The notes beneath the pieces are model-generated. The model made no database searches, had not been told where the DNA came from, and saw only the letters and a program-made list of their open reading frames with translations. Positions 32,468 through 47,718 of a DNA stretch of 47,968 bases are shown in pieces. How positions within the stretch are numbered: position 1 is the first letter of the stretch; each line of letters opens with the position of its first letter. Location of the stretch: the NCBI GenBank assembly GCA_003224235.1, contig QHYU01000148.1:56072-104039 (forward strand), read 5' to 3'. The stretch comes from Acidobacteriota bacterium. GTDB lineage: Bacteria > Acidobacteriota > Terriglobia > Acidiferrales > UBA7541. The translations under genes and the position numbers were made by a program.

Positions 32468-32908
32468 ATGAAGAAGCAAACCAAATTCGTGGTGGGCGCG
32501 CTCATCATAATCGTCTCGCTGGGCTGGCTCGCATGGGTAGGCGCGAAAGAGAGCAAGACCTACTATCACACCATTGCGGAACTCTCCACGCCGAAGGGTG
32601 CCGAGGCGCGCCATCGCATGCGCGTGGGCGGCACGGTTCGCGCCGGCTCGATCGCGCGATACACCGGGCGGGTGGACTTCGTGATCGAAGGGGAAGGGAA
32701 GTCGCTCCCGGTCAGCTACACCGGAAGCGACCCGCTGCCCGATACATTTGTGGATAACAGCCAGGCCCTGGTCGAAGGAAGACTGGCGACGAACGGCACC
32801 TTCGTGGCCGACAAGGTTCAGGCCAAGTGCGCGTCGAAATATGAAGCGGCGCCGGGCCAGCAGAAAAAAGACTACGAAAACCCTGGGTACTCGAACAAAA
32901 AAAGCTAA
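32468..32908 (+). CDS. ccmE: cytochrome c maturation haem chaperone, Cys-type CcmE
   Basis: CcmE carries haem covalently in the periplasm from the CcmABCD exporter to the CcmF synthetase. The 146 residues have an N-terminal membrane anchor (about 7-25) and an OB-fold domain with RVGGTVRAGSI and VDFVIEG. The haem-binding position reads KCASKY (Cys121, Tyr125), a CxxxY motif instead of the classical HxxxY. Cys-type CcmE proteins are known from Desulfovibrio and archaea. AAGGGGAGAAATGCA precedes the ATG. It is the first gene of the ccm operon. Confidence 0.9.
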   Translation: MKKQTKFVVGALIIIVSLGWLAWVGAKESKTYYHTIAELSTPKGAEARHRMRVGGTVRAGSIARYTGRVDFVIEGEGKSLPVSYTGSDPLPDTFVDNSQALVEGRLATNGTFVADKVQAKCASKYEAAPGQQKKDYENPGYSNKKS

Positions 32909-32926
32909 ACCGCTCTTGAGGTGTTT

Positions 32927-34987
32927 GTGGACCTGTTTGGGTCATTCGCACTGCTTCTGGCTTTCGTCTGCGCCGTGTATGCCATCGGCGTAGGCATCGC
33001 CGCCATCCTTAGCCGCCGGCCGCTGCTGAACAAAAGCGCCCGGCAGGCCGGCATGGCCGTATGCGTCCTCATCACGCTGGCGATGGGTAGCTTGGTCTAC
33101 CTGTTCCTGACGGACAACTTCTCGTTAGCTTACGTCGTGGGGCACAGCAACCGCGATCTTCCTACCTTCTACAAATTCGCCGCGCTGTGGTCAGGTCAAG
33201 AAGGCTCGCTACTGTTTTGGAGCTGGCTGCTTTCGATCTATGTCTTCTCAGTTTTGTATTCCTATCGCGCTAAACACCCGGAGCTGATGCCTTACGTCGG
33301 CGTGGTGCTGGCGAGCGTGCAACTGTTCTTCCTCATCTTGAACGTCTTTATCGCCAGCCCGTTCAAAGTGCTGGGCGCGCTGGGCCCCGGCGGCGCGATG
33401 CAGGTGATTACGCAGGCCGACGGCAAGGGTTTGACGCCGCTGCTGCAATACCCCGAGATGGTAATTCACCCGCCCATGCTCTACTCGGGCTATACCGGCT
33501 TCACCATCCCATTCGCTTTCGCGCTGGCGGCGCTGCTGGGCCGCTATCCGGGTGAGAAGTGGATTCACGTAACGCGCAAGTGGACGATGATCGCCTGGTG
33601 CTTCCAGAGTGCTGGCATTTTGCTCGGCGCGCATTGGGCCTATGCCGTGCTCGGCTGGGGCGGCTACTGGGCTTGGGACCCGGTGGAAAATGCCTCGCTG
33701 ATGCCCTGGCTGACGGGCACCGCCTTCCTGCATTCGGTGATGATGCAGGAGAAGCGCGGGATGCTCCGAGTGTGGAACGTCTGGCTGGTCTTCTCTACGT
33801 TCTTGCTGTGCATCCTGGGCACCTTTCTCACGCGTAGCGGCGTGGTCAGCTCGGTGCACGCCTTCGCGCAGTCCAACATCGGACCCTGGTTCGTGGGGTT
33901 TCTCGGTTTGATTGTGGCCGTGTGCATTTTGGCATTTCTGAAAAATCGTGACTACCTGCGCAGCGATAACCAGCTCGATTCGATGGTATCGCGCGAGTCG
34001 AGCTTCCTGTTCAACAATCTGATCCTGCTGGTCGCCTGCGTCGCGGTACTCTCTGGCACGCTCTTCCCGGTGCTTTCCGAGTGGGTGCAGGGCACCAAGA
34101 TCAGCGTTGGCGCGCCCTTCTTCAACAAGGTCAACATTCCGATCGGGCTTTTTCTGCTGTTTTTGACTGGCGTGGGCCCGCTGTTGGCTTGGCGCAAGAC
34201 CTCGGCGGAAAGCCTGAGGCGAAATTTCGGCTGGTCGCTGTTAGGGGGTCTTGCTGCGGGTGCGATCGCGTACCCGCTGGGCTTCCGCGACTTCTACGCG
34301 CTGGTTTGCCTGATCCTCTCCGTCTTCGTTACCCTGACCATCGCCGCCGAATTCTTCCGCGGCGCCCGAGTGATTCGCGCGCGCGCGGGCCTCAATTTCT
34401 TCTCCGCCGTCGGACACCTCACCATGCGCAACACGCGCCGCTACGGCGGTTACGTCGTCCATTTTGGCATGGTGCTGATTTTCATCGGCCTGGCTGGCAC
34501 CGCATTCAACCAGGATAAACAGATGGAGATGGCCCCCGGTTCGAAGATGGAGATTGGCGCCTATACCCTGGTCTGCCAGACTTTCACCTCGCGTCCAGAG
34601 CAGAACTACACCGCAGAGCGCGCCACGATTGAAGCGCTCCGCAACGGCCAACAGGTGATGATGCTCTATCCCGAGCGGCGTTTCTATCCCGCCAACGAAC
34701 AGTCCGGCACGATGGTGGCCATCTACTCGACGCTCAAGGAAGACCTCTACGTTGTCTACGCCGGCCGCAGCCCGGAGACCCAGCAGCCGGTAATTCACGT
34801 CTATCTGAACCCCCTGGTGAAATGGATCTGGCTGGGCGGCGCGATTGTCGTACTCGGCACGATCCTGGCTCTGCTTCCCAACCGCCAGGCCGTCCTGGTA
34901 ATGCGCGCGGCGACACAGCCTGTTTCAGCGGCTCCCGCACCTCAACCCGTTAGTGCTACCCTACGGAGCTATGAAGGGCACGACTAA
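32927..34987 (+). CDS. ccmF: cytochrome c haem lyase subunit CcmF
   Basis: An inner-membrane protein of about 686 residues and some 15 membrane segments, which attaches haem from CcmE to apocytochrome c. The WWD motif is WGGYWAWDPVENASLMPWL (residues about 245-263). HPPMLYSGY and the RSGVVSSVHAFA loop supply conserved haem-ligand regions. GTG 32927 is preferred because TTGAGG lies five bases upstream; GTG 32921 is the alternative. The 3' end overlaps ccmH by 17 bases, so the two are coupled. Confidence 0.94.
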   Translation: MDLFGSFALLLAFVCAVYAIGVGIAAILSRRPLLNKSARQAGMAVCVLITLAMGSLVYLFLTDNFSLAYVVGHSNRDLPTFYKFAALWSGQEGSLLFWSWLLSIYVFSVLYSYRAKHPELMPYVGVVLASVQLFFLILNVFIASPFKVLGALGPGGAMQVITQADGKGLTPLLQYPEMVIHPPMLYSGYTGFTIPFAFALAALLGRYPGEKWIHVTRKWTMIAWCFQSAGILLGAHWAYAVLGWGGYWAWDPVENASLMPWLTGTAFLHSVMMQEKRGMLRVWNVWLVFSTFLLCILGTFLTRSGVVSSVHAFAQSNIGPWFVGFLGLIVAVCILAFLKNRDYLRSDNQLDSMVSRESSFLFNNLILLVACVAVLSGTLFPVLSEWVQGTKISVGAPFFNKVNIPIGLFLLFLTGVGPLLAWRKTSAESLRRNFGWSLLGGLAAGAIAYPLGFRDFYALVCLILSVFVTLTIAAEFFRGARVIRARAGLNFFSAVGHLTMRNTRRYGGYVVHFGMVLIFIGLAGTAFNQDKQMEMAPGSKMEIGAYTLVCQTFTSRPEQNYTAERATIEALRNGQQVMMLYPERRFYPANEQSGTMVAIYSTLKEDLYVVYAGRSPETQQPVIHVYLNPLVKWIWLGGAIVVLGTILALLPNRQAVLVMRAATQPVSAAPAPQPVSATLRSYEGHD

Positions 34988-35459
34988 ACTTCTGCCCCTG
35001 GCGCTGGTGGTCGTTTTGGCGCTGGCACTGAGCCATCTCGCGTGGCTACCCGCCTACGCCCAGCAGACCGAGCGTGCTAAAAACATCGGCAAGCGCCTGT
35101 TGTGCATGTGCAACTGCAATCAGATCCTCACTGCTTGCAACCATGTTGGCTGCTCGACGTCGGCCGCCATGCTGAAAAAACTCGACCAGGTTGTCGCCCG
35201 CAATGAACCCGAGGACCTCACCGTGCAGTCGTTCATTCAGGAGTGGGGCGAGCGGGTCCTGGCTGAACCGCCTGCCAAGGGCTTCAATCGGCTGGCCTGG
35301 TTTATTCCCGGTGGGGCCTTCGCGCTGGGCCTGGTGCTCGTTATCGTGGTCATCGCGCACTGGCGCCGTCGCATGACACTGGCTCCCGCAGGGCCCAGCG
35401 TCTCCCCAGATGCGCTTTCGCGGGCGCGCTTGCAGGCCGATCAGGAGACCGAGGAATAG
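34971..35459 (+). CDS. ccmH: cytochrome c maturation protein CcmH, variant Cys motif
   Basis: CcmH reduces the CxxCH thiols of apocytochromes in the periplasm. A signal or anchor segment (1-30) precedes the short CcmH domain, and a C-terminal membrane helix (about 107-127) follows. The active-site motif, classically LRCxxCQ, reads LLCMCNCNQ with Cys at 45, 47 and 49, plus Cys56 and Cys61 in TACNHVGC. So there are five Cys and no strict CxxC. ATG 34971 follows ACGGAG; it lies inside the end of ccmF. The next gene starts one base after the stop. Confidence 0.88.
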   Translation: MKGTTKLLPLALVVVLALALSHLAWLPAYAQQTERAKNIGKRLLCMCNCNQILTACNHVGCSTSAAMLKKLDQVVARNEPEDLTVQSFIQEWGERVLAEPPAKGFNRLAWFIPGGAFALGLVLVIVVIAHWRRRMTLAPAGPSVSPDALSRARLQADQETEE

Positions 35460-35460
35460 G

Positions 35461-35862
35461 ATGCTGGCTCGAGGCGAGATGCTCCTGGCTGCGATCGAGA
35501 CCTTTGCGGGCATCGATGTTGCCATGCTGCTGGCGTGCCTTGCGCTTTCGGCAGCAACAGTGGTATTCATTTTTCTCATTGAGGCCGACCCTGTTGATTC
35601 CGCGCCGCATCGCTCGCGCCTGGACCAGTTGCTTGAGCGCCGCGACACCATCTACGACAACCTGCGCGACCTGAAGTTCGAGCACCGCGCCGGAAAATTC
35701 TCCGAGCAGGATTATGAGGAGACTAAAAACGCGCTCGAAACTGAAGCCGCTCTCGTTCTGGCCGAAATAGAGAACGTTACCGGCGGCCAGGCCCGCCCGT
35801 CCCGGCGAGAGATACCCAACGCCGCGACGCGCCCTGCCGCTACGGAAAAATCACCTTCATGA
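35461..35862 (+). CDS. CcmI-like small membrane protein
   Basis: A 133-residue protein with one membrane helix (about residues 18-40) and a helical tail, RLDQLLERRDTIYDNLRDLKFEHRAGKFSEQDYEE... This resembles the membrane and coiled N-terminal part of CcmI, the apocytochrome chaperone, without the TPR domain. It starts one base after ccmH and ends in an ATGA overlap with the next gene, so all are one operon. The tail is echoed at the C-terminus of the next protein. Confidence 0.65.
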   Translation: MLARGEMLLAAIETFAGIDVAMLLACLALSAATVVFIFLIEADPVDSAPHRSRLDQLLERRDTIYDNLRDLKFEHRAGKFSEQDYEETKNALETEAALVLAEIENVTGGQARPSRREIPNAATRPAATEKSPS

Positions 35863-37112
35863 CCAAAAATTGTCTTCGCGTCGTCCTCGTAATGCTGTTA
35901 ACCCTTTCTGTAGCGGGTGTAGCCGAAGCCGGGACCGTGTCCGGTGTGGTGCGCAACGCCACTAACGGCTCAGTCGCCGCCGGCGTGGACGTCATCCTGA
36001 TTCAACTCCAGGCCGGCATGGAAACCGTCGCGAACACGAAAACGGACGCCCAGGGCCGCTACCAGCTGGAGCACGCGTCCATCGGCCTCCAGCCCATGCT
36101 CGTTCGCGTCAACTACCGCGGCGTTAATTTCCATCAGGCGCTGCCACCCGGCCGTAATATCGCCGACGTGGAAGTTTTCGAACAAACCACCAATGCCAGC
36201 GCGATGCAGGTAGCCTCGCGGGTAATTGTTCTGCAGCCGGAAGGCGCGCAATTGGTGGTCGGCGAGGAATACGCGGTGGAGAACCACTCAAAGCCTCCCA
36301 TGGCCCATTACAAGTCCGATGGCAATTTCGAGTTCCAGCTTCCGGAAGGCGGGGAGCTAAAGCAGGTGTCGGCCTGGGGCCCGGCCGGTATGCCCGTGGT
36401 GCAGGGAACGATCGAGAAAGGGGGACGCCACCAGGCGATCGCCTTCGCTTTCCGCCCGGGGAAGAACGGTGTACGACTCTCCTACCAAATGCCTTACGCC
36501 ACAAACCAGGCTACGCTCCACACCGCATTGCCCTACGCGGTTGGGCGCGTCCTGGTAGTGGTGCCGCCGACTTTGCAAGTGTCGAGTACGGGTTTCCAGC
36601 CTGCCGGGACCGAGCAGGGGTGGAATATCTATGCCCGCGACTCCGTTGCGGCTGGAACACCTCTAGATATTTCGGTGTCCGGCACCGCGCCGCCACCCTC
36701 GGCGTCCGGGGGACAGTCGCAGGGGCGCGAATCTGGGGGTCGCGAAGAAACCGTCCAAGTAATGCCGAACCGACTCGACGGCTTGAAGTGGGTGCTCGTG
36801 GGCGGCTTTGCCGCGCTGTTTTTCCTAGGCGCGGTCTTCCTGTGGCTCAGGCCAGCCGGCTCAACCAATAATCACCCGGAAGCGCCGCGAAGCTCGAACC
36901 GCAAGCGCGGCCGGTCGAAACAGTCCGAGACAGCAACGGTTTCCCGGTCGGGTCGAGAAGCGGAGACCCAGGCCAATCGCAGCCTGGAGGAGCTGAAGGA
37001 CACGCTGTTCGGACTCGAGTTGCGGCGTCAGGCTGGCACCATCTCCGAGGAAGACTACGCCCGGGAGCGTGGCCGCGCTGAAGGTAAGTTGCGCGAGCTC
37101 GTAAAGGGCTGA
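35859..37112 (+). CDS. membrane protein with carboxypeptidase-regulatory-like domain and CcmI-like tail
   Basis: A 417-residue protein that I cannot assign to a known maturation factor. A signal peptide ([19 protein letters not shown]) is followed by a carboxypeptidase-regulatory (Ig-like) domain ([13 protein letters not shown]... to about 100), a beta-rich periplasmic domain (100-280), a Gly/Ser linker and one membrane helix (about 310-330). The cytoplasmic tail ends [18 protein letters not shown]...SEEDY, which matches the tail of the preceding CcmI-like protein (L-x-x-x-x-D-T...AG-x-x-SE-x-DY). Its ATG overlaps the previous stop, and ccmA follows after ten bases, so a role in cytochrome maturation is likely by context. 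Confidence 0.7.
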
Positions 37113-37122
37113 GTCAAGCCTC

Positions 37123-37878
37123 GTGGCCACTGCGCTGCACCAACCACATCTCGGGATCGAATTCCATCAGATCGAAAAACGCTATGGCACGCTACTCGCT
37201 TTGCGGCAGATTTCTCTCAGCGTCTCCGCGGGCGAATTTGTCGCGCTGCTGGGGCACAACGGTTCGGGCAAAACCACTCTGCTGAGGGTGGCCGCGCTAC
37301 TGGTGAGGCCCAGTGCGGGGCGCGTGTCGTTTTCGGGTGTCGCCGAGGACACGGCGGCAATCAAACAGCGGATCGGCATGGTGGCGCACAACACGATGCT
37401 CTACGACGAGTTGTCCGCCGAGGAGAACCTCACGCTCTTCGCGCGGCTCCACGGTCTGGCGAATCCCGCCGCTCACGCCCGCCAAGCGCTCGAGCCCTCC
37501 GGCTTGGCCGCGCGCCGCAGTGACTTTGTGCGAACCTTTTCGCGCGGCATGCGCCAGCGCCTGGCCATTGCGCGGGCGCTGCTTGCTGCGCCTGGCCTGC
37601 TGCTGCTCGACGAACCCGCCGCGGGACTGGACCGCGAAGGCACCGATTGGTTGACTGAAACACTTCGTCGCCTCCGCGATTCCGGGTGCACGATCCTGAT
37701 GAGCACACACGGCCGCAGCGAAACCTTGTCGCTCGCCACCCGCGCGGTGCGCTTGGAAGCCGGAGTTCTGGTGCAGGACACGGGGGCGGGGAACAACCTG
37801 CGGCAAGTTCTGGAGGCTGCGGCGGGCTCCAGCCAGCCCCCTCGCGATGGGGCCAAGGAGGAGCCATGCCGAATCTGA
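37123..37878 (+). CDS. ccmA: haem exporter ATP-binding protein CcmA
   Basis: The ATPase of the CcmABCD complex, which loads or releases haem on CcmE. Of 251 residues, Walker A is [11 protein letters not shown], the ABC signature is [16 protein letters not shown], Walker B is [12 protein letters not shown], and the switch His lies in MSTHGR. The start is GTG 37123 with a weak ribosome-binding site. Its end overlaps ccmB by 13 bases. Confidence 0.92.
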
Positions 37879-38552
37879 CGCGTGCCGCCACAATCATTTT
37901 GGGAAAGGAACTCCGGACCGAGTTCCGCACGCGCGAGTTGCTCTCCACTACCATCGTCTTCGTCCTGATGGTGGTTGTGCTTTTCAGCTTCACATTCGAC
38001 CCCTCCGCCTCCGAATCGCGCCGCTTTGGTCCCGGTCTGCTCTGGATCGCCTTCCTGTTCGCCGGTTCGCTAATGCTCCATCCCTCGTTCATGCGCGAGC
38101 AGGCCAACGACACCCTTGCTGGGCTGCGTCTGGCTCCCATCGAACCGTTCGCCATCCTGACGGGCAAAATCCTGGCCAACTTCCTGTTCCTTCTCCTGGC
38201 GGAGCTTCTGCTGCTGCCAGTTTTTGCCGTGCTCTACGATGTGCGACTCACGCCGGTGCAGGGTCGCTTGTTACCGGTGATGTTGGTGCTGATCCTGGGC
38301 ACGCTCGGATTGACCACCGTCGGCACCGTGTTTTCGGCTGTCGCCTCGCAGGCGCGCATGCGCGAGCTGCTGCTGCCGCTGCTTCTGTTGCCGGTGCTGA
38401 CCCCGGTTCTGATCGCCAGCGCCGAAGCAACCTCCGGGCTGCTGGCCGATCCGCCCGAGCTGCCCCGCACCTGGCTTGCCTTTTTAGTCGCTTTCGACGT
38501 TGTCTTTTTGACTGCCACCTGGCTTTTCGGCGAATATTTACTCGAAGAATGA
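37866..38552 (+). CDS. ccmB: haem exporter permease CcmB
   Basis: A 228-residue inner-membrane subunit of CcmABCD with about six membrane helices. The N-terminus [21 protein letters not shown] and the [19 protein letters not shown] loop match CcmB. ATG 37866 sits within the last codons of ccmA, and the stop overlaps the first possible ccmC ATG. Order A-B-C-D is the classical one. Confidence 0.9.
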
Positions 38553-38563
38553 AAGAGGCAGGG

Positions 38564-39283
38564 ATGAAACCGAACTGGATGACTACGCTCATTGTTGCCG
38601 CGCTCATCGGGATCGCCGGCTACGCGGCGCTGTTCCTTGCGCCCACCGAGCGCACCATGGGCCTCATCCAGCGGATCTTTTATTTCCACGTGCCCAGCGC
38701 CTGGGCGGGTTTCGTCGCTTTCTTTATCACTTTTATCGCCAGCGTGGCCTACCTGCTGCGCCGGGCGCCGAAGTGGGACTGGTTGGCGGTGTCCTCGGCC
38801 GAAGTTGGCGTGGCCTTTTTCACGGTGGTCCTGGTGACTGGTCCCATCTGGGCTAAGCCGGTCTGGGGCATCTGGTGGACCTGGGATGCGCGACTGACTT
38901 CGACGTTTGTGCTCTGGGTGCTCTACCTCTCGTACCTGCTGTTGCGCACGCTGGTCGCGGACGCCGAGCGCCGGGCAGTGGTGTCAGCCGTGTTCGGCAT
39001 CTTTGCGTTTCTGGATGTGCCGCTGGTGTACATGTCCATCCGATGGTGGCGGACGCAGCACCCCCAGCCAGTAATTGCGGGCGGCAGCGGCTCGGGCCTG
39101 GACCCGCAGATGTGGCGCGTCTTCTTGACCTGCTGGGCGGCGCTGCTCGGAGTGTTGATCGTGATGCTGCGTCAGCGGTACCAGCTCGAGTCGTTGCGCC
39201 ACACCGTAGAAGAAATGACTGTCGAAGCAGAACGCCGCAACGCCGACCTCGAGCGGATACCGTCCACGCAGGCGGTGAGGTGA
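38564..39283 (+). CDS. ccmC: haem handling protein CcmC
   Basis: A 239-residue protein with six membrane helices that attaches haem to CcmE. The WWD motif is WGIWWTWDARLTS at about residues 102-114. Conserved His regions are FYFHVPSAW and the periplasmic RWWRTQHPQ. ATG 38564 is preferred because AGAGG lies five bases upstream; ATG 38549, in an ATGA overlap with ccmB, is the alternative. The C-terminal 40 residues form a charged cytoplasmic helix. Confidence 0.92.
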   Translation: MKPNWMTTLIVAALIGIAGYAALFLAPTERTMGLIQRIFYFHVPSAWAGFVAFFITFIASVAYLLRRAPKWDWLAVSSAEVGVAFFTVVLVTGPIWAKPVWGIWWTWDARLTSTFVLWVLYLSYLLLRTLVADAERRAVVSAVFGIFAFLDVPLVYMSIRWWRTQHPQPVIAGGSGSGLDPQMWRVFLTCWAALLGVLIVMLRQRYQLESLRHTVEEMTVEAERRNADLERIPSTQAVR

Positions 39284-39662: not shown

Positions 39663-40736
39663 ATGAGTGACCGCAAGAGAGTCGGTGTGGTGTTGTTCCA
39701 ATTGGGCGGGCCTGACTCCCCCGCCGCTATTGAGCCATTTCTCTACAATTTGTTCTGCGATCCCGACATCATCCCGCTGGGCCCTCTGGGCGTCGTGCTG
39801 CGCAAGCCGCTGGCGTGGTACATCTCCAGCCGGCGGGTGAAGACCGTGTCCCACCATTATGACGAGATCGGCGGCCAGTCGCCGATACGCCTGCTGACGG
39901 AGCGCCAGGCGCGGAAGCTGGCCGCAGCGCTGCAGCCTCGTGTCGAGCCGCGCGTGGTCATCGCCATGCGCTACTGGCATCCCCTCACTACGGAAGCTGT
40001 GACCGCGCTCAACGGTTTGCCTCTGGACCAACTGGTCTTGCTGCCGCTTTATCCGCATTATTCGTTCGCCACCACGGGCAGCAGCTTGAAGGAATGGGAT
40101 CGCGTCTATCGGCCCGGCAGCAGGTCATTGCCGGTCACCATCATCCAGCAATTTTACGATCATCCTCTCTACATTGATGCGGTGGTGGAAAGGGTCGCGT
40201 GCAGCTTGACCCACTTCGAGCGTCCGGCCGACGTTCACCTCGTCTTCAGCGCCCATGGTTTGCCCCTGAGCCTGATCGAAAAGGGCGATCCCTACCAGCG
40301 GCAGGTGGAAGAAACGGTGCGCCTGGTGATGCAGCGCGGCGCGCAGGTGGCGTTTCGCCACCCCGAATTCCCGTCGCAAGCTGTCGGATCGCCGCGGGGA
40401 CGGCGGGGAGGCTGGCCCGCCGCGTTTACGCTGTGTTATCAGAGCAAGGTGGGCCGCGCGAAGTGGCTCGAGCCCTCGCTGACGGCAACACTCGAGGACT
40501 TGGCTCGCGGCGGCAAGAAGCACCTGCTCGTCATCCCGATCGCATTTGTCACCGAGCACATCGAAACCCTACATGAAATCAACATCGAAGCGCGCGAAGA
40601 GGTCGAAAAGCTCGGCGTCGAACAGTTCGAGATGATGCCCGCTGTAGGCGACTCCCCGCGGTTTATCGCCACGCTCGCTGATCTGGTTCTCCGCGCCGCC
40701 GGTGTCGAAGCGGCCGTCCCGACGCTTGTCAGATGA
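39663..40736 (+). CDS. hemH: ferrochelatase
   Basis: Inserts Fe(II) into a porphyrin, the last step of haem synthesis. The 357 residues start GVVLFQLGGPDSPAAIEPFLYNLFCDP. The catalytic His is in FSAHGLPLSL, and YQSKVGRAKWLEPS and VTEHIETLHEINIE are the later conserved blocks. Between about 235 and 255 a Gly/Arg-rich insert (GSPRGRRGGW) precedes the YQSKVG motif. ATG 39663 follows AGGAAG. It lies between the ccm operon and the bc-type operon, where haem is consumed. Confidence 0.93.
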   Translation: MSDRKRVGVVLFQLGGPDSPAAIEPFLYNLFCDPDIIPLGPLGVVLRKPLAWYISSRRVKTVSHHYDEIGGQSPIRLLTERQARKLAAALQPRVEPRVVIAMRYWHPLTTEAVTALNGLPLDQLVLLPLYPHYSFATTGSSLKEWDRVYRPGSRSLPVTIIQQFYDHPLYIDAVVERVACSLTHFERPADVHLVFSAHGLPLSLIEKGDPYQRQVEETVRLVMQRGAQVAFRHPEFPSQAVGSPRGRRGGWPAAFTLCYQSKVGRAKWLEPSLTATLEDLARGGKKHLLVIPIAFVTEHIETLHEINIEAREEVEKLGVEQFEMMPAVGDSPRFIATLADLVLRAAGVEAAVPTLVR

Positions 40737-40855: not shown

Positions 40856-41452
40856 ATGTCGGAACACACGGAAACGAAGCCGCCTGAGACCGCTGCCCCG
40901 CCTGGCCCTGTTGCCACCGCGGGGCAAAAACCCGCAGCGAAGGTTCCCGCAGAGAGCAAAGCCGCCGTGGAACCCGATAAGATGCGGCGGCGCCTGATTT
41001 GGGCTTGCGTCTGGGGTTACCTGGGCGTCAATTTTCTGATGTTCTTGCGCTTTTTCTTTCCGCGGACCTTGTTTGAGCCTGAAACCGTCTTTTCCGTCGG
41101 ATACCCGTCTGATTTCAGCCTGGGTGTGGAGACTAAGTTCCAGAAGCAATACCGCATCTGGGTGGTGAAGGAACCGGACAAACTATTCGTCATCTACGCC
41201 CGCTGCACGCATCTGGGCTGCACGCCAGACTGGAAGGAGAGCGAAAACAAGTTCAAGTGCCCATGCCACGGCAGCGGTTACACCATGGAAGGGATCAACT
41301 TTGAGGGCCCTGCGCCGCGGCCGATGGACCGCAGCCACGTGGAACTGGACGCAACCGGCCAGATCATCGTGGATACGAGCCGCTTGTACGTCCGCGACCC
41401 GAGGGCCGGGCGCGACGAATTTGAAAACCCGGGTGCATTCTTGACTGTTTAA
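40856..41452 (+). CDS. Rieske [2Fe-2S] protein
   Basis: The high-potential iron-sulphur subunit of a quinol-oxidising bc-type complex. Of 198 residues, an Ala/Pro-rich N-terminal part and one membrane helix (about 46-66) lead to the periplasmic cluster domain. The cluster motifs are CTHLGC and CPCHGSGY, with two Cys and two His ligands; the two inner Cys can form the usual disulphide. The protein reads to a Phe/Thr-rich end without insertion. It opens the operon continued by the cytochrome b subunit 50 bases on. Confidence 0.93.
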   Translation: MSEHTETKPPETAAPPGPVATAGQKPAAKVPAESKAAVEPDKMRRRLIWACVWGYLGVNFLMFLRFFFPRTLFEPETVFSVGYPSDFSLGVETKFQKQYRIWVVKEPDKLFVIYARCTHLGCTPDWKESENKFKCPCHGSGYTMEGINFEGPAPRPMDRSHVELDATGQIIVDTSRLYVRDPRAGRDEFENPGAFLTV

Positions 41453-41502: not shown

Positions 41503-42441
41503 ATGCCGAAAGAAAACGGGGGAAACAAGCGCACAGGCCTTCTTGAAAAAGTCCAGGAAGATGCCAAGGCGCTCAAGGAATTCTTCAGGGAAAAGGGCAA
41601 AGAGGAGCTGGAGGGCCTGAAGGAGCCCGAAAAGACACAGCTTTTCCGCTCCATCTTCCGCGTCAAACACGACGAGACCCCCCGCAACCGCGCGCTCAGC
41701 GTTCTGACAAACCTCTTCTTCCATCTCCATCCGGCCAAAATCAATCGCGACGCAGTGCGCTATAGCTACACCTGGGGCATGGGGGGTATCACTTTCTACC
41801 TGTTCGTCGTGCTCACCTTTACCGGTGTCCTGCTGATGTTCTATTACCACCCCACCAAGATCCAGGCGTTCCGGGACATTCTGTACCTGGAAAACGACGT
41901 CCCGTTCGGGAAACTGCTGCGTAACATGCACCGCTGGGCCGCGCACCTGATGATCATCGCCGTGTGGTTGCATATGTTTCGAGTCTTTCTCACCGGCTCG
42001 TACAAGCGGCCGCGAGAGTTTAACTGGTGCGTTGGCGTCATTCTGATGGTGCTCACTTTGCTGCTGTCGTTCACCGGCTACCTGCTGCCCGACGATCAGT
42101 TAGGCTTCTGGGCGGTGACCGTGGGTACGAACATGGCCCGCGCTACCCCGCTGCTGGGTCACGAGGGGCCGTTCGGGGCGCAGTTGGGTATGACACCTTA
42201 CAACGACGTGCGTTTCGCGTTGCTGGGTGGCTCGATCGTGGATGCCAATGCGCTGTTGCGCGCCTATATTTGGCACTGCATTGCTATCCCGCTGATCGCG
42301 GCGATCTTCATGGGAGTGCATTTCTGGCGCGTGCGCAAGGATGGCGGCATCTCTGGCCCCTCTCCGGTGATGCTGGAATCAGAGATCAAGGAGGAGAAGG
42401 GGCCGCGGCCGGTGATCCTGAGACCGAGCGGTATGCGATAG
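41503..42441 (+). CDS. cytochrome b6-like subunit
   Basis: A diheme cytochrome b core of 312 residues. A charged, coiled N-terminal extension of about 70 residues precedes four membrane helices. The haem ligands are visible: HRW...LHMFR with 14 residues between the pair in helix B, and WHC...GVHFW with 15 in helix D. The 15 spacing is that of b6-type proteins rather than mitochondrial cytochrome b. The C-terminus ends after the fourth helix (RKDGGISGP), so the quinol-site half is on a separate protein, as in b6f. GGGGGAGA precedes the ATG. Confidence 0.92.
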   Translation: MPKENGGNKRTGLLEKVQEDAKALKEFFREKGKEELEGLKEPEKTQLFRSIFRVKHDETPRNRALSVLTNLFFHLHPAKINRDAVRYSYTWGMGGITFYLFVVLTFTGVLLMFYYHPTKIQAFRDILYLENDVPFGKLLRNMHRWAAHLMIIAVWLHMFRVFLTGSYKRPREFNWCVGVILMVLTLLLSFTGYLLPDDQLGFWAVTVGTNMARATPLLGHEGPFGAQLGMTPYNDVRFALLGGSIVDANALLRAYIWHCIAIPLIAAIFMGVHFWRVRKDGGISGPSPVMLESEIKEEKGPRPVILRPSGMR

Positions 42442-42624: not shown

Positions 42625-43614
42625 ATGTGGGGGGATTGGCATCAGGTCTGGGAAATTGTCTCGCAGCCGGACAACGTGCCGATTGTGGCGCTGCTTTTTC
42701 TGGTGCCCTTTTACGTCTGGTACGCCTGCCGTCAAGCCTTTGCCACTGACCGGCTGATCGCGCAGCTCGAAACCGATCCGCAACTGGCCAAGACGCATCA
42801 CCGCAAGGTGTTCCCGTGGAAGGCTGGCTGGGACAGGGAGGTGCACGTCTGGCCGTACTTAATGCGCATCGAGTTTCTGGCGGCCATCATCGTCACCATT
42901 ATTCTGATGGTCTGGTCCATCACCTTGAATGCCCCACTGGAAGAGCCGGCCAACCCCAACCTGACGATGAACCCCGCTAAGGCTCCGTGGTATTTCCTCG
43001 GGTTGCAGGAAATGCTGGTCTATTTCGACCCCTGGATCGCCGGCGTGGTCATGCCGACGCTGATCATCATCGGCCTGATGGTCATCCCCTACGTCGATGC
43101 CAATCCCTTGGGCAACGGGTATTACACCTACAGGCAGCGGCGCTTTGCCATTTGGACCTTCCTGTTTGGCTTTCTCTTCTTGTGGGTGATAATGATCGTG
43201 ATCGGCACGTTTATCCGCGGCCCGGGCTGGATGTGGTTCTGGCCGACGCAGACTTGGGACCACAACCGTCTGGAGTTTGCGGTGAACCGGAACCTGGACC
43301 AAATCGTCGGGATTGACGGCTCCTGGCTGGCCCATCTGCTGCCGCAAACGCTGAAAGCGTCATCCCCCATCATCGCGCGCGCGATCTTCGGTATCTTTCC
43401 CCTCGTGCTTTACGTCATTCTCGCCGCGTATCTGATTCACCTGATTTGTAACCTCACTGCATTCAGTCGAAAGATTTACAAGCGTATGACCCTGTTGCAA
43501 ATCGTGACTGTGCAGGTGTTGCTGGTCCTGATGCTGAGCCTGCCGGTGAAAATCCTGCTGCGGTTGCTTTTCCGGATCAAGTACATATGGGTGACCCCAT
43601 GGTTCAGCATCTGA
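42625..43614 (+). CDS. cytochrome b subunit IV-like protein with extension
   Basis: The second half of the split cytochrome b, 329 residues. After an N-terminal membrane helix (about 18-36) comes the subunit IV core, NPNLTMNPAKAPWYFLGLQE, then MPTLIIIGLMVIPYVD. The quinol-site PEWY motif reads APWY. About 170 further residues, with more membrane helices (IWTFLFGFLFLWVIMIVIG, FGIFPLVLYVILAAYLIHL), exceed subunit IV (about 160). AGGAGA lies before the ATG. A 183-base gap without features separates it from the b6-like gene. Confidence 0.88.
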   Translation: MWGDWHQVWEIVSQPDNVPIVALLFLVPFYVWYACRQAFATDRLIAQLETDPQLAKTHHRKVFPWKAGWDREVHVWPYLMRIEFLAAIIVTIILMVWSITLNAPLEEPANPNLTMNPAKAPWYFLGLQEMLVYFDPWIAGVVMPTLIIIGLMVIPYVDANPLGNGYYTYRQRRFAIWTFLFGFLFLWVIMIVIGTFIRGPGWMWFWPTQTWDHNRLEFAVNRNLDQIVGIDGSWLAHLLPQTLKASSPIIARAIFGIFPLVLYVILAAYLIHLICNLTAFSRKIYKRMTLLQIVTVQVLLVLMLSLPVKILLRLLFRIKYIWVTPWFSI

Positions 43615-43647: not shown

Positions 43648-46600
43648 GTGCCTGAGACCCATTCCGACGACCCCATTCAGAGCAGGTCTTTCACTGTTCC
43701 CCTCCTGGTCTCTGTGTTTCTGCTGTTGCTGACCGTCGCGTGGTCGCTCTATGATGAGTTCTACGGCCTGCGCCCGTGGCGCTCCTACCAGCACGAATTT
43801 GCCAAGGTCTACGCGCAATACCTCAACAACCAAATCCCGCGGCAACAAAACCGGGAAAAGCTGATCCGGGAATCAGCCGAGTACAAGAAGCTGGACGAGC
43901 AGGTCAGGGCAGCCGAGGAAGCAGCCAGGCCTCGCCTCCGGGAGATTGGGAAAGAGTCCGATTACATTGATCGCCGTCTGGCAGCGCTGACCGACAGATT
44001 CCAGGAGGCCCGTGGAAAGGTCACCGCACTGGTTTACACCATGGAACTCTATCCGGTCGGTACGAACTCCCGGAAGAGCAAATTTGCGGAAGTCGAGCAA
44101 GCCAAGAAAGAAATCTATGCCGTGGAGCTGCCTACCCCCGACGGCAGGGTGGAAACCAAGAAGTTCGTTTATGATCAGCTCGAGGCTGAATTCAACAACC
44201 TGAAAGCGCGCAAGGCGCAACTGGTGGCCGAGCAGGGCGAAGTCTTGCGTCCCCCCAAAGAGCTGCGCGAACAGCGGGACAATTACTTCAAGGAGAAGAT
44301 GGAGGGCCTGACCGCAGACCAGCTCAAGGGCCTCTTGAACGCCGCCGAGCATCTGGACATATCCATCCGGCAGATCAACGTCAATCCGACCGATCCCGGC
44401 ATTAACAACTTCGGTTCCGGAGGATTGGTAGATCGCTGCCAGTCCTGCCACCTGGGGACGGATCCCAAGCTCGTTCCGCTAGCGATGACGCTGATCAAGG
44501 CGGACCTCGGTCTGGCGAAGAGCAAGGACGCGCCCTTCGCGAGCCATCCCGAGACTGAACTCCTCAAGATCCACACCACCGAGAAATTCGGCTGCTCACC
44601 ATGTCATGGCGGCAACGGCCGCGCCCTGGACAGCGTGCGAAGGGCCCACGGCCGGTATGAGCATTGGCTTTGGCCCCTCTACTACGCGGAAAACTACCAG
44701 GCCGGCTGCCAACAGTGCCACGCGGCCGATATGTTGACCGAGCACGCGCCGGTGCTCAACCGCGGCAAGGATCTCTATCGCAGCCGGGGATGCATCGGCT
44801 GCCACAAATTCGAAGGCTTCGATGACCAAAGCGAACAAATCCTAGCTTCGCGGCAGGCTATCCGACAGCTTGAGCAGGAGAAAAAGGACGACGAGCTCGA
44901 AATTCCGCGCCTTAACAAGGCCGCGGACGCCGCCCCTGACAACGAAACGGCACGGAAACTCAACGCGCGTGCGACCAACCTGACCGTCACGATCAGTAAT
45001 ATCGACGCGCGGATTGAGCAACTCGAACAGAAGACGCGCAGCCTGTTCCGCGAAGAGAAGAAGGTCGGCCCCAGCCTGAAAGAAGTCCGCATGAAGCTCC
45101 TCAAGGAATGGATCCCCTACTGGCTGGGCCACACGCACGAGTTTCGCCCGGCCACCAAGATGCCCCAGTTCCGCCTGGAACAGGACCAGATCCAGGCCAT
45201 CGCCGCTTTCATCTGGCAGTCGGGTGTCCCGGGCCCCGCGCTCGCCAAGCAGCCGCCAGGCGATGCGGGCCGCGGCAAACAATTGTTTGAGGCGCGCGGC
45301 TGCATGGCCTGCCACGCCGTGGGCGAAGGATCCAACGTCATCGGCGGCGACTTTGCCGCCAACCTCAGCCACGTCGGTGAAAAAGCCGGCTACGATTATC
45401 TGGTGCGCTGGGTGCACAACCCGCGCGAGCGGACACGCCCCTTTTGCCCGTTCGAGAAGCGCGACCTGGGCCCCGAGGACTACGCCAAACACGGCCTGGC
45501 TTACGTCTTCGATCTCGAGCATTCACGCTGCCCGAACGATGGCCACGAGCTGCAGGTGCAGCAACCGACGGTGATGCCTAGCCTGCGGCTCACCTGGGAG
45601 GAGGCGCGCGATATCGCGAGCTACCTCATTACCTTGAAGCGAAAGGACGCCTCCTACGAACTGGCCCCTGACCTGGACGACCCGAGACTCAAGGAGCGCG
45701 GCCGCGCGCTGGTGAAGAACTACGGCTGTGCCGGATGCCACGAGATCTCCGGTCTCGAGGATGAGCCCCGACTTGGCACTGAGCTGACCACCGAGGGCAG
45801 CAAGCCCATCGAGCGCCTGGATTTCGCCCGGCTGACCGAGGACGCCAAACGCGGTGTCCTTCCCGACGGGAAGGAATCTCCCCGCGGCCCTTGGTACGAT
45901 CAAAAGGGGTTCTTCGAGCAGAAGCTGGCCAGCCCGGCTGTCTATGACAAGGACAAGTACAAGCCGGACCCACTCGACCGGCTGAAGATGCCCAAACCCA
46001 ACGTCACCGCGGACGATATCAACGCACTGACGACCTTTCTGTTGGGAAGCGTAGATCCGCAGTTACCGCAGGATTATATGTACAAGCCCGGCGATGCACG
46101 CCACGACGTCCAGGCGGGCTGGTGGATCGTTACCAAATATAACTGCATGGGCTGTCACCAGGTGCATATCGGACAGCAATCCGTGCTGCAAAACCTGCCG
46201 CAATATCAGGGCGACAACAAGATCAAGCTCCCACCGCCGTTGATCCCCGAAGGCGCGCGGGTCGATCCCAACTGGCTCGCGCACTTCCTTGACAATCCGG
46301 CGATGAGCAAGACGGACCTGAACCGCAACGGCGTGCGCTCGTATCTCGAGGTGCGCATGCCCACTTTCAGCTTCTCCGACGATGAAATCCAGAAGCTGGT
46401 GCGCTTCTTCGCCGCAGCCAGTTCGCAGGCGCAGCCTTATCTACCGCCCAAGCTTGAGCCGCTGACCGACACCGAACGCACCGTAGCGCGGCAGCTCTTC
46501 ACCAGCCCGGCGGCACCATGCTTGAAGTGCCACGCCACCGGCGACCCGGCGCACGACAAAGACGCCACGGCGCCGAACTTCCTGCTTGCGCGCGAGCGGC

Positions 46601-46848
46601 TGAAGCCTGCCTGGACGCTCCGCTGGATCCTCGATCCGGCCCGCATTGTCCCCGGCACGGCCATGCCCTCCGGCCTTTTCCGCAAGGAAGGGGATCACTG
46701 GATCTTTAGCGGGCCGCTGCCGCCGAGTGTCCAGGGCTACGCAAAGGACCACGCGGATCTGCTGGTCCGGTATATGTTCCAGTTGACGCCCGAGGAGCAA
46801 CTCATGCTGACGGGCCGCACCGCCGCCACGGCCGGGTCGGGCGAGTAG
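43648..46848 (+). CDS. octahaem cytochrome c of the bc-type complex
   Basis: A 1066-residue membrane-anchored protein with eight CxxCH haem-binding motifs, at about residues 264, 316, 354, 382, 552, 694, 833 and 958. One membrane helix (about 13-32) anchors it; the rest is periplasmic. Two charged coiled regions flank the first haem cluster, at about 45-215 and 390-475. Met-ligand-like segments such as ATKMPQF, VRMPTFSF and GTAMPSG follow individual haem domains. It takes the place of cytochrome c1 in this operon. GTG 43648 follows AAGGAGG. Maturation would need the ccm genes just upstream. Confidence 0.9.
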   Translation: MPETHSDDPIQSRSFTVPLLVSVFLLLLTVAWSLYDEFYGLRPWRSYQHEFAKVYAQYLNNQIPRQQNREKLIRESAEYKKLDEQVRAAEEAARPRLREIGKESDYIDRRLAALTDRFQEARGKVTALVYTMELYPVGTNSRKSKFAEVEQAKKEIYAVELPTPDGRVETKKFVYDQLEAEFNNLKARKAQLVAEQGEVLRPPKELREQRDNYFKEKMEGLTADQLKGLLNAAEHLDISIRQINVNPTDPGINNFGSGGLVDRCQSCHLGTDPKLVPLAMTLIKADLGLAKSKDAPFASHPETELLKIHTTEKFGCSPCHGGNGRALDSVRRAHGRYEHWLWPLYYAENYQAGCQQCHAADMLTEHAPVLNRGKDLYRSRGCIGCHKFEGFDDQSEQILASRQAIRQLEQEKKDDELEIPRLNKAADAAPDNETARKLNARATNLTVTISNIDARIEQLEQKTRSLFREEKKVGPSLKEVRMKLLKEWIPYWLGHTHEFRPATKMPQFRLEQDQIQAIAAFIWQSGVPGPALAKQPPGDAGRGKQLFEARGCMACHAVGEGSNVIGGDFAANLSHVGEKAGYDYLVRWVHNPRERTRPFCPFEKRDLGPEDYAKHGLAYVFDLEHSRCPNDGHELQVQQPTVMPSLRLTWEEARDIASYLITLKRKDASYELAPDLDDPRLKERGRALVKNYGCAGCHEISGLEDEPRLGTELTTEGSKPIERLDFARLTEDAKRGVLPDGKESPRGPWYDQKGFFEQKLASPAVYDKDKYKPDPLDRLKMPKPNVTADDINALTTFLLGSVDPQLPQDYMYKPGDARHDVQAGWWIVTKYNCMGCHQVHIGQQSVLQNLPQYQGDNKIKLPPPLIPEGARVDPNWLAHFLDNPAMSKTDLNRNGVRSYLEVRMPTFSFSDDEIQKLVRFFAAASSQAQPYLPPKLEPLTDTERTVARQLFTSPAAPCLKCHATGDPAHDKDATAPNFLLARERLKPAWTLRWILDPARIVPGTAMPSGLFRKEGDHWIFSGPLPPSVQGYAKDHADLLVRYMFQLTPEEQLMLTGRTAATAGSGE

Positions 46849-46929
46849 GAGAGGGCAGGGAAGTGTCGCTGTTCTTTTTTCAGTTGTCATCGGCTTTGAC
46901 CTGAATTCAAGAGGAGGATGTACTTAAAA

Positions 46930-47718
46930 ATGAGATCCCCATACTCGTTATACTTGGTCATGGCCGCCGCTCTGGCGTTTTCGCTGCTGAGCTGCGGCAA
47001 AAAGGAAGAAACGACCGAGAAGGCGCCGGCGGTCACGCCGGCCGCGGCGCCGGTGGATTTGGCCACAGTAGGCTCGGTCAGCGGCACGGTCAAGCTGGAC
47101 GGCCCGGCGCCGAAACCCAAGAAGATAAATATGGCTGCCGAGCCTTCCTGCGCTGCCATACATGCCTCCAGCCCGGCCTTTGATGAAGAAGTAGTCGAAG
47201 GTGAGGGGGGCACTCTCGCCAACGTCGTGGTCTACGTCAAGGAAGGCGCGGGCAACCGTGCATTCGAACCGCCGAAGACTCCTGTCACGCTCGACCAGAA
47301 GGGCTGCACGTACATCCCGCACGTGGTCGCGCTGCAGGCTAGCCAGCCGCTGGACGTCATCAACAGCGACAAAACCACGCACAACATCCACCCCGTGCCC
47401 AAGAACAACCGCGAGTGGAACAAGTCGCAACCCCCCGGGGCGCCCAACATCGAAGAAGTCTTTGGGCGCGAGGAAGTAGCCATTCCCGTGAAGTGCAACG
47501 TCCACCCGTGGATGAAGAGCTACATCGCCGTATTCAAGCACCCGTACTTTCAGGTGACCAAGACCAATGGCAGCTTCGAACTGAAGAATCTGCCTGCGGG
47601 CACCTACACGATCGAGGCCTGGCACGAAAAGTATGGCACGACCTCGCAAACGGTCACCCTCGCCGCCAAGGAATCGAAGACGGTAAGTTTCGTCTTCAAG
47701 GCAGCCTCGGGAGACTAG
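46930..47718 (+). CDS. cupredoxin-like lipoprotein
   Basis: A 262-residue lipoprotein: the signal MRSPYSLYLVMAAALAFSLL ends in the lipobox LLSC (Cys22). The mature part has a Pro/Ala linker, then a beta-rich domain. THNIHP and the later CNVHPWM segment give the His, Cys, His and Met spacing of a type I copper site. The C-terminal 60 residues (FELKNLPAGTYTIEAWH) form a carboxypeptidase-regulatory-like domain. ATG 46930 is chosen; ATG 46918 touches the ribosome-binding site GAGGAGG. It is likely an electron carrier after the bc-type complex. Confidence 0.78.
   Translation: MRSPYSLYLVMAAALAFSLLSCGKKEETTEKAPAVTPAAAPVDLATVGSVSGTVKLDGPAPKPKKINMAAEPSCAAIHASSPAFDEEVVEGEGGTLANVVVYVKEGAGNRAFEPPKTPVTLDQKGCTYIPHVVALQASQPLDVINSDKTTHNIHPVPKNNREWNKSQPPGAPNIEEVFGREEVAIPVKCNVHPWMKSYIAVFKHPYFQVTKTNGSFELKNLPAGTYTIEAWHEKYGTTSQTVTLAAKESKTVSFVFKAASGD

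Follow-up and report, generated by a model that had tools for sequence, protein, structure and literature searches.

An octahaem cytochrome with helical arms beside a Rieske/cytochrome b operon of Acidobacteriota, a distinctive variant of a known layout

A stretch of 47,968 nucleotides from an Acidobacteriota bacterium (the window; contig QHYU01000148.1) carries genes for a Rieske protein, a b6-like cytochrome b, an enlarged subunit-IV-like protein and a large octahaem c-type cytochrome. We propose that these proteins probably form a menaquinol-oxidising b6f-type complex III of an aerobic respiratory chain, in which the octahaem cytochrome would pass electrons from the Rieske protein to a cupredoxin, which in turn would reduce a CuA-type (aa3) oxidase. 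The gene set, the cofactor ligands, their conservation and the linkage of such loci to oxidase and haem A synthesis genes were observed directly. The complex represents a known Rieske/cytochrome b plus octahaem layout in a distinctive and widespread form, and not a separate kind. Acidobacteriota are among the commonest soil bacteria, and their complex III has received little attention in the literature found. The operon, the ferrochelatase and CcmA-CcmC genes upstream of it and the cupredoxin gene all lie on the + strand of the window.

The Rieske/cytochrome b core and its cytochrome

The Rieske [2Fe-2S] protein (40856-41452) has 198 residues and one transmembrane helix (Pfam Rieske, E = 1.5e-8). 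Its cluster motifs, CTHLGC (41204-41221) and CPCHGSGY (41258-41281), contain the two cysteine and two histidine ligands, and CTHLGC and CPCHGS were conserved in 47 to 48 sequences. The next gene (41503-42441) encodes a b6-like four-helix cytochrome b (Pfam Cytochrome_B, E = 5e-41), for which the best PDB match was cytochrome b6. The haem b ligands His143, His157, His258 and His273 were invariant in 51 of 51 sequences, and the spacing within the two pairs (14 and 15 residues) is that of b6. The subunit-IV-like protein (42625-43614; 329 residues; Pfam Cytochrom_B_C, E = 1.2e-5) aligned to subunit IV of cytochrome b6f, but is twice as long and has about six hydrophobic segments. It carries the Qo motif APWY (42982-42993), which was present in all 51 aligned sequences. 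By its cluster and haem b ligands the complex would count as a Rieske/cytochrome b complex in the wide sense, and a Q cycle is predicted.

The position of the haem ci cysteine (Cys35 of b6) is occupied by Gly92 in the b6-like protein of the window. Among the three classes of octahaem loci distinguished below, only class B has Cys at the equivalent position; class A has Gly and class C has Tyr. A passage in PMC9162462 states that the second residue of the Qo motif tracks quinone type and cofactor potential. With APWY in place of PEWY and the ci cysteine lost, details of the quinol chemistry may differ. As regards menaquinone, MqnA/D-type genes were found in the source genome, in which the search for MenB stayed below its cut-off.

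The octahaem gene (43648-46848) has a GTG start and a good ribosome-binding site, AAGGAGG. The 1066-residue product contains eight CXXCH motifs, at residues 264, 316, 354, 382, 552, 694, 833 and 958, whereas shuffled versions of the sequence contained a mean of 0.007 and a maximum of one. It has an N-terminal transmembrane anchor (43675-43749, about residues 10-34). Since about 40 of 61 kin genomes carry the gene, mostly with 51-65% identity, we consider it a real gene. The original prediction had described an open reading frame of this length with eight such motifs, the first four of them within residues 264-386, and both points held when the motifs were counted; the predicted order of Rieske, b6-like, subunit-IV-like and cytochrome genes was likewise borne out by Pfam and by alignments to b6f chains. 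The octahaem sequence had no match in the PDB at E <= 0.001, Pfam and homology searches gave no match to cytochrome f, and no relatives were found in plasmid and viral collections. Some relatives were flagged for in-frame stops, and selenocysteine within a haem motif was considered and rejected; in L104, the one case that was resolved, the stop is located near the C-terminus, after all eight motifs.

Haem ligands and helical arms

Distal haem ligands were sought in an alignment of 82 distinct octahaem sequences, comprising 69 of class A, to which the window protein belongs, 7 of class B and 6 of class C. Beyond the eight CXXCH histidines, exactly three more histidines were invariant (300, 309 and 334). 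Five methionines were conserved (505, 643, 781, 904 and 1006), which were invariant in the 69 class A sequences, and the position of Met1006 is Glu or Asp in most of the coil-less class C proteins. Three histidines and five methionines give eight distal ligands, matching the eight haems. This conservation indicates that three bis-His haems come first and that five class I monohaem domains with His/Met ligation follow, the predicted pairing being based on the order and number of the ligands. The trihaem module (44437-44721) would thus combine the CXXCH motifs at 264, 316 and 354 with the three further histidines. The first class I domain (44791-45165) would extend from CXXCH 382 to Met505, and class I domains 2-5 (45301-46668) would pair the motifs at 552, 694, 833 and 958 with Met643, Met781, Met904 and Met1006, respectively. 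Pfam recognised four Cytochrom_C stretches in the protein of the window, and a class C protein had five. The fused monohaem domains suggested originally were thereby retained as five class I domains, but the haems group as three plus five instead of four plus four: the conserved ligands make haem 4, previously assigned to the first cluster, the first of the five class I domains. The second class I domain contains an insertion (residues 600-632; 45445-45543) with the pattern CP...CPNDGH, resembling half a zinc ribbon, whose cysteines are not kept in all relatives.

Both helical arms are long and charged, with AlphaFold2 pLDDT values of mostly 70-88. Arm 1 (43777-44349; residues 44-234) consists of long antiparallel helices, and arm 2 (44827-45057; residues 394-470) is a helical hairpin between the CXXCH motif and the Met ligand of haem 4. 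AlphaFold2 gave confident helices at residues 43-73, 76-132, 174-216 and 393-426/431-469. In four of these five helices hydrophobicity had a period of 3.48-3.56 residues (p 0.002-0.02), while the period was not significant in helix 43-73. Two long coiled regions had been expected, and both the modelled helices and the heptad periodicity agree with them. In the AlphaFold2 model of the whole cytochrome only the arms were confident and the haem part had a mean pLDDT of 49, and for this reason the haem layout was taken from ligand conservation and not from the model.

The three classes differ in their arms. Class A octahaems have both; those of class B (about 960 residues) keep the long N-terminal region and lack the second arm; those of class C (about 700 residues) have neither arm and the same 3 + 5 order of haems. 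In trees built from cytochrome b and from the trihaem module, class A came out as a single, fully supported group (100/99). The interval taken up by arm 2 is uninterrupted in class C, and the second arm appears to be an insertion inside the first class I cytochrome domain. As armed and armless octahaems both exist, an octahaem wire can do without the helical arms. In two families of class A (L105-L111) the stretch between haems 7 and 8 of the cytochrome is longer by 30-80 residues.

Cupredoxin, oxidase genes and the electron acceptor

Directly downstream of the octahaem gene is a gene for a cupredoxin lipoprotein (46918-47718; LLSC lipobox, Cys26), which had been overlooked together with the link to an oxidase. 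The cupredoxin domain (residues 120-206) is set in a carboxypeptidase-regulatory-like domain, and its model (pLDDT 71 overall) matched plastocyanin and amicyanin in Foldseek/VIA comparisons with Z scores of 8.0-8.8. The His-Cys-His-Met copper site, including the upstream His, was invariant in 11 sequences. The copper loop CNVHPWM has the spacing C-x2-H-x2-M, which is the short loop spacing of amicyanin.

We then compared the neighbourhoods of 43 class A loci, about 40 of which are distinct because a few contigs were present twice. The cupredoxin lipoprotein gene followed the cytochrome gene in 42 of them, subunit IV and cytochrome b preceded it in 41 and the Rieske gene in 38; loci missing core genes were mostly at contig ends, and the order Rieske, cytochrome b, subunit IV, cytochrome, cupredoxin was found in every locus reaching far enough. 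This homologue search, which could have refuted the original reading, showed instead that the cytochrome stays with the Rieske and cytochrome b genes. The view that it takes the place of cytochrome c1 or f is supported as well. Genes of haem A synthesis were frequent neighbours (CtaA in 33/43 loci, CtaB in 30/43), as were those for a HEAT-repeat protein (29/43), DUF420 (24/43), ferrochelatase (22/43) and CcmB/C (16/43). COX1 and COX2 adjoined the operon in 12 of the 43 loci (11 distinct). The COX2 proteins have the CuA motif and no haem c and therefore need a separate electron donor. In the window, a ferrochelatase gene (39663-40736; Pfam E = 1.2e-104) and the cytochrome c maturation genes CcmA, CcmB and CcmC (37123-39283; Pfam) lie upstream of the Rieske gene; the latter belong to a system I set (CcmE, CcmF and CcmH, then CcmA, CcmB and CcmC) at 32468-39283. 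CtaA and CtaB are not visible at this locus, since the source contig stops directly behind the gene for the cupredoxin. The conserved HEAT-repeat protein includes a HlyD-like segment and is encoded downstream of the operon, at L039:14226-15431 and in 28 other loci. In the class C operons L081-L086 a cupredoxin gene, encoding a CxVHPxM loop, precedes the Rieske gene rather than following the cytochrome gene.

In the proposed mechanism, the b6-like protein and the enlarged subunit IV would together form the Qo site at which menaquinol is oxidised, with one electron going to the b haems and the other to the Rieske cluster. The octahaem cytochrome, held by its one transmembrane helix, would occupy the place of cytochrome c1 or f; its trihaem bis-His module would accept the electron from the Rieske protein, and the five fused class I domains would carry it outwards to the membrane-anchored cupredoxin, which would reduce the oxidase. 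The helical arms could be scaffolding by which the wire is clamped or oriented, either on the complex or towards the oxidase. What we infer is that the proteins assemble into a single complex, that electrons pass in this order, that the arms have this role and that the cupredoxin is the acceptor. In the original description of the complex, the term quinol oxidase is better replaced by quinol:acceptor oxidoreductase.

Copper delivery could also be the function of the cupredoxin. It is conceivable but unlikely that the octahaem cytochrome reaches CuA directly in a III-IV supercomplex, with the cupredoxin acting not as a carrier but as a chaperone that supplies copper during assembly of the oxidase. 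The dihaem QcrC of Actinobacteria is a precedent, and the oxidase assembly genes CtaA and CtaB come after the cupredoxin gene, but the protein keeps a full type 1 site of the kind typical of electron carriers, and it is also encoded beside class C operons, where no CtaA or CtaB was seen. We regard it as quite improbable that the complex feeds a non-oxygen acceptor, such as nitrogen oxides or extracellular acceptors, or that it works in the reverse direction, as has been suggested in anammox and nitrite-oxidising bacteria. Although published octahaem operons belong to nitrogen-cycle bacteria and ExtP/ExtQ of a Geobacter cluster are similar to the core, no reductase genes were recognised in the conserved neighbourhood, in which oxidase subunits and haem A synthesis recur.

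Several points count against the preferred reading, namely the position of the only COX1 of the source genome elsewhere, the low confidence of the modelled haem part, the APWY motif and the loss of the ci cysteine. Besides one cytochrome b of the b6-like kind, the source genome has two alternative complex III clusters (contigs C109 and C112), and its single COX1 adjoins one of these clusters and not the octahaem operon. The genome thus seems to hold three complex-III-like units, and since an alternative complex III adjoins COX1, electrons from menaquinol could reach the same oxidase by two routes.

Known complexes and cytochromes with five to seven haems

In 2013 Rieske operons with split b6/subunit IV genes and, as their sole c subunit, an adjoining octahaem cytochrome were described in Nitrospina gracilis, Kuenenia stuttgartiensis and Methylomirabilis oxyfera (PMC3578206). 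The acidobacterial operon has the same layout, the octahaems being likened by description and not by sequence; those hosts are nitrogen-cycle bacteria, whereas the acidobacterial operon is linked to cupredoxin and aa3 oxidase genes. In the Kuenenia complexes Kustd1480-1485 and Kuste4569-4574 a hexa- or octahaem cytochrome replaces cytochrome f, the long helices of Kustd1485 wrap round the complex, and a five-helix subunit IV was reported (PMC12954380). These anammox complexes also share with the acidobacterial one a b6-like cytochrome b and an enlarged subunit IV, but they add NAD(P) oxidoreductase subunits, of which none were seen at the acidobacterial locus, and keep haem cN, the haem cysteine of which is missing here. 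Multihaem partners of Rieske/cytochrome b proteins have also been described in Methanoperedens and Geobacter (PMC4683180, PMC2825233).

With cytochrome b6f the acidobacterial complex has in common the split cytochrome b, the 14/15 histidine spacing and the Rieske protein, and the plant acceptor is a cupredoxin, matching the cupredoxin gene found here; it differs in that it lacks cytochrome f and the ci cysteine, has APWY where b6f has PEWY, and has a longer subunit IV. Unlike cytochrome bc1, it has neither cytochrome c1 nor a single long cytochrome b. In the actinobacterial bcc-aa3 supercomplex, which uses menaquinol, a multihaem c subunit of complex III bridges to the CuA oxidase, as may be the case here; that subunit has two haems and no helical arms, in contrast to the eight haems and the cupredoxin gene of the acidobacterial system. 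The suggestion that the architecture may be distinctive therefore stands for its details but not for the octahaem plus b6/IV layout or for long helices as such, both of which are published (PMC3578206 and PMC12954380, respectively). As far as the literature found shows, what is new is the phylum-wide series of five to eight haems, the 3 + 5 accounting of ligands, the insertion of an arm into a cytochrome domain, the absence of the ci cysteine, and the linkage with cupredoxin and oxidase genes.

The trihaem module also occurs in cytochromes with five, six and seven haems, and in 11 of 11 loci examined their genes directly adjoin those for Rieske and cytochrome b. The possibility that the cytochrome is a separate periplasmic protein, merely co-transcribed, appears very remote: the evidence of association is gene linkage, but this adjacency is kept across every class and haem number, the cytochrome has its own membrane anchor and the operon contains no other candidate for c1 or f. 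The module looks like a docking part common to all forms, the direction of change being inferred. Tentatively, and with some doubt, the complex III of Acidobacteriota might be seen as a modular family of a common trihaem docking module and one to five class I domains, in which the longest, helically braced form and a tethered cupredoxin stand in for cytochrome c1 as well as for soluble cytochrome c and form a fixed wire leading to the aa3 oxidase; this would be a third hard-wiring of complexes III and IV beside bcc-aa3 and alternative complex III. The 5-, 6-, 7- and 8-haem partners around one trihaem module constitute a natural experiment on the evolution of the Rieske/cytochrome b exit arm, and the oxidase linkage makes the choice between wire and shuttle directly testable. 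In the operons with five to seven haems (L122-L132), b6 and subunit IV usually form one long frame of 440-500 residues.
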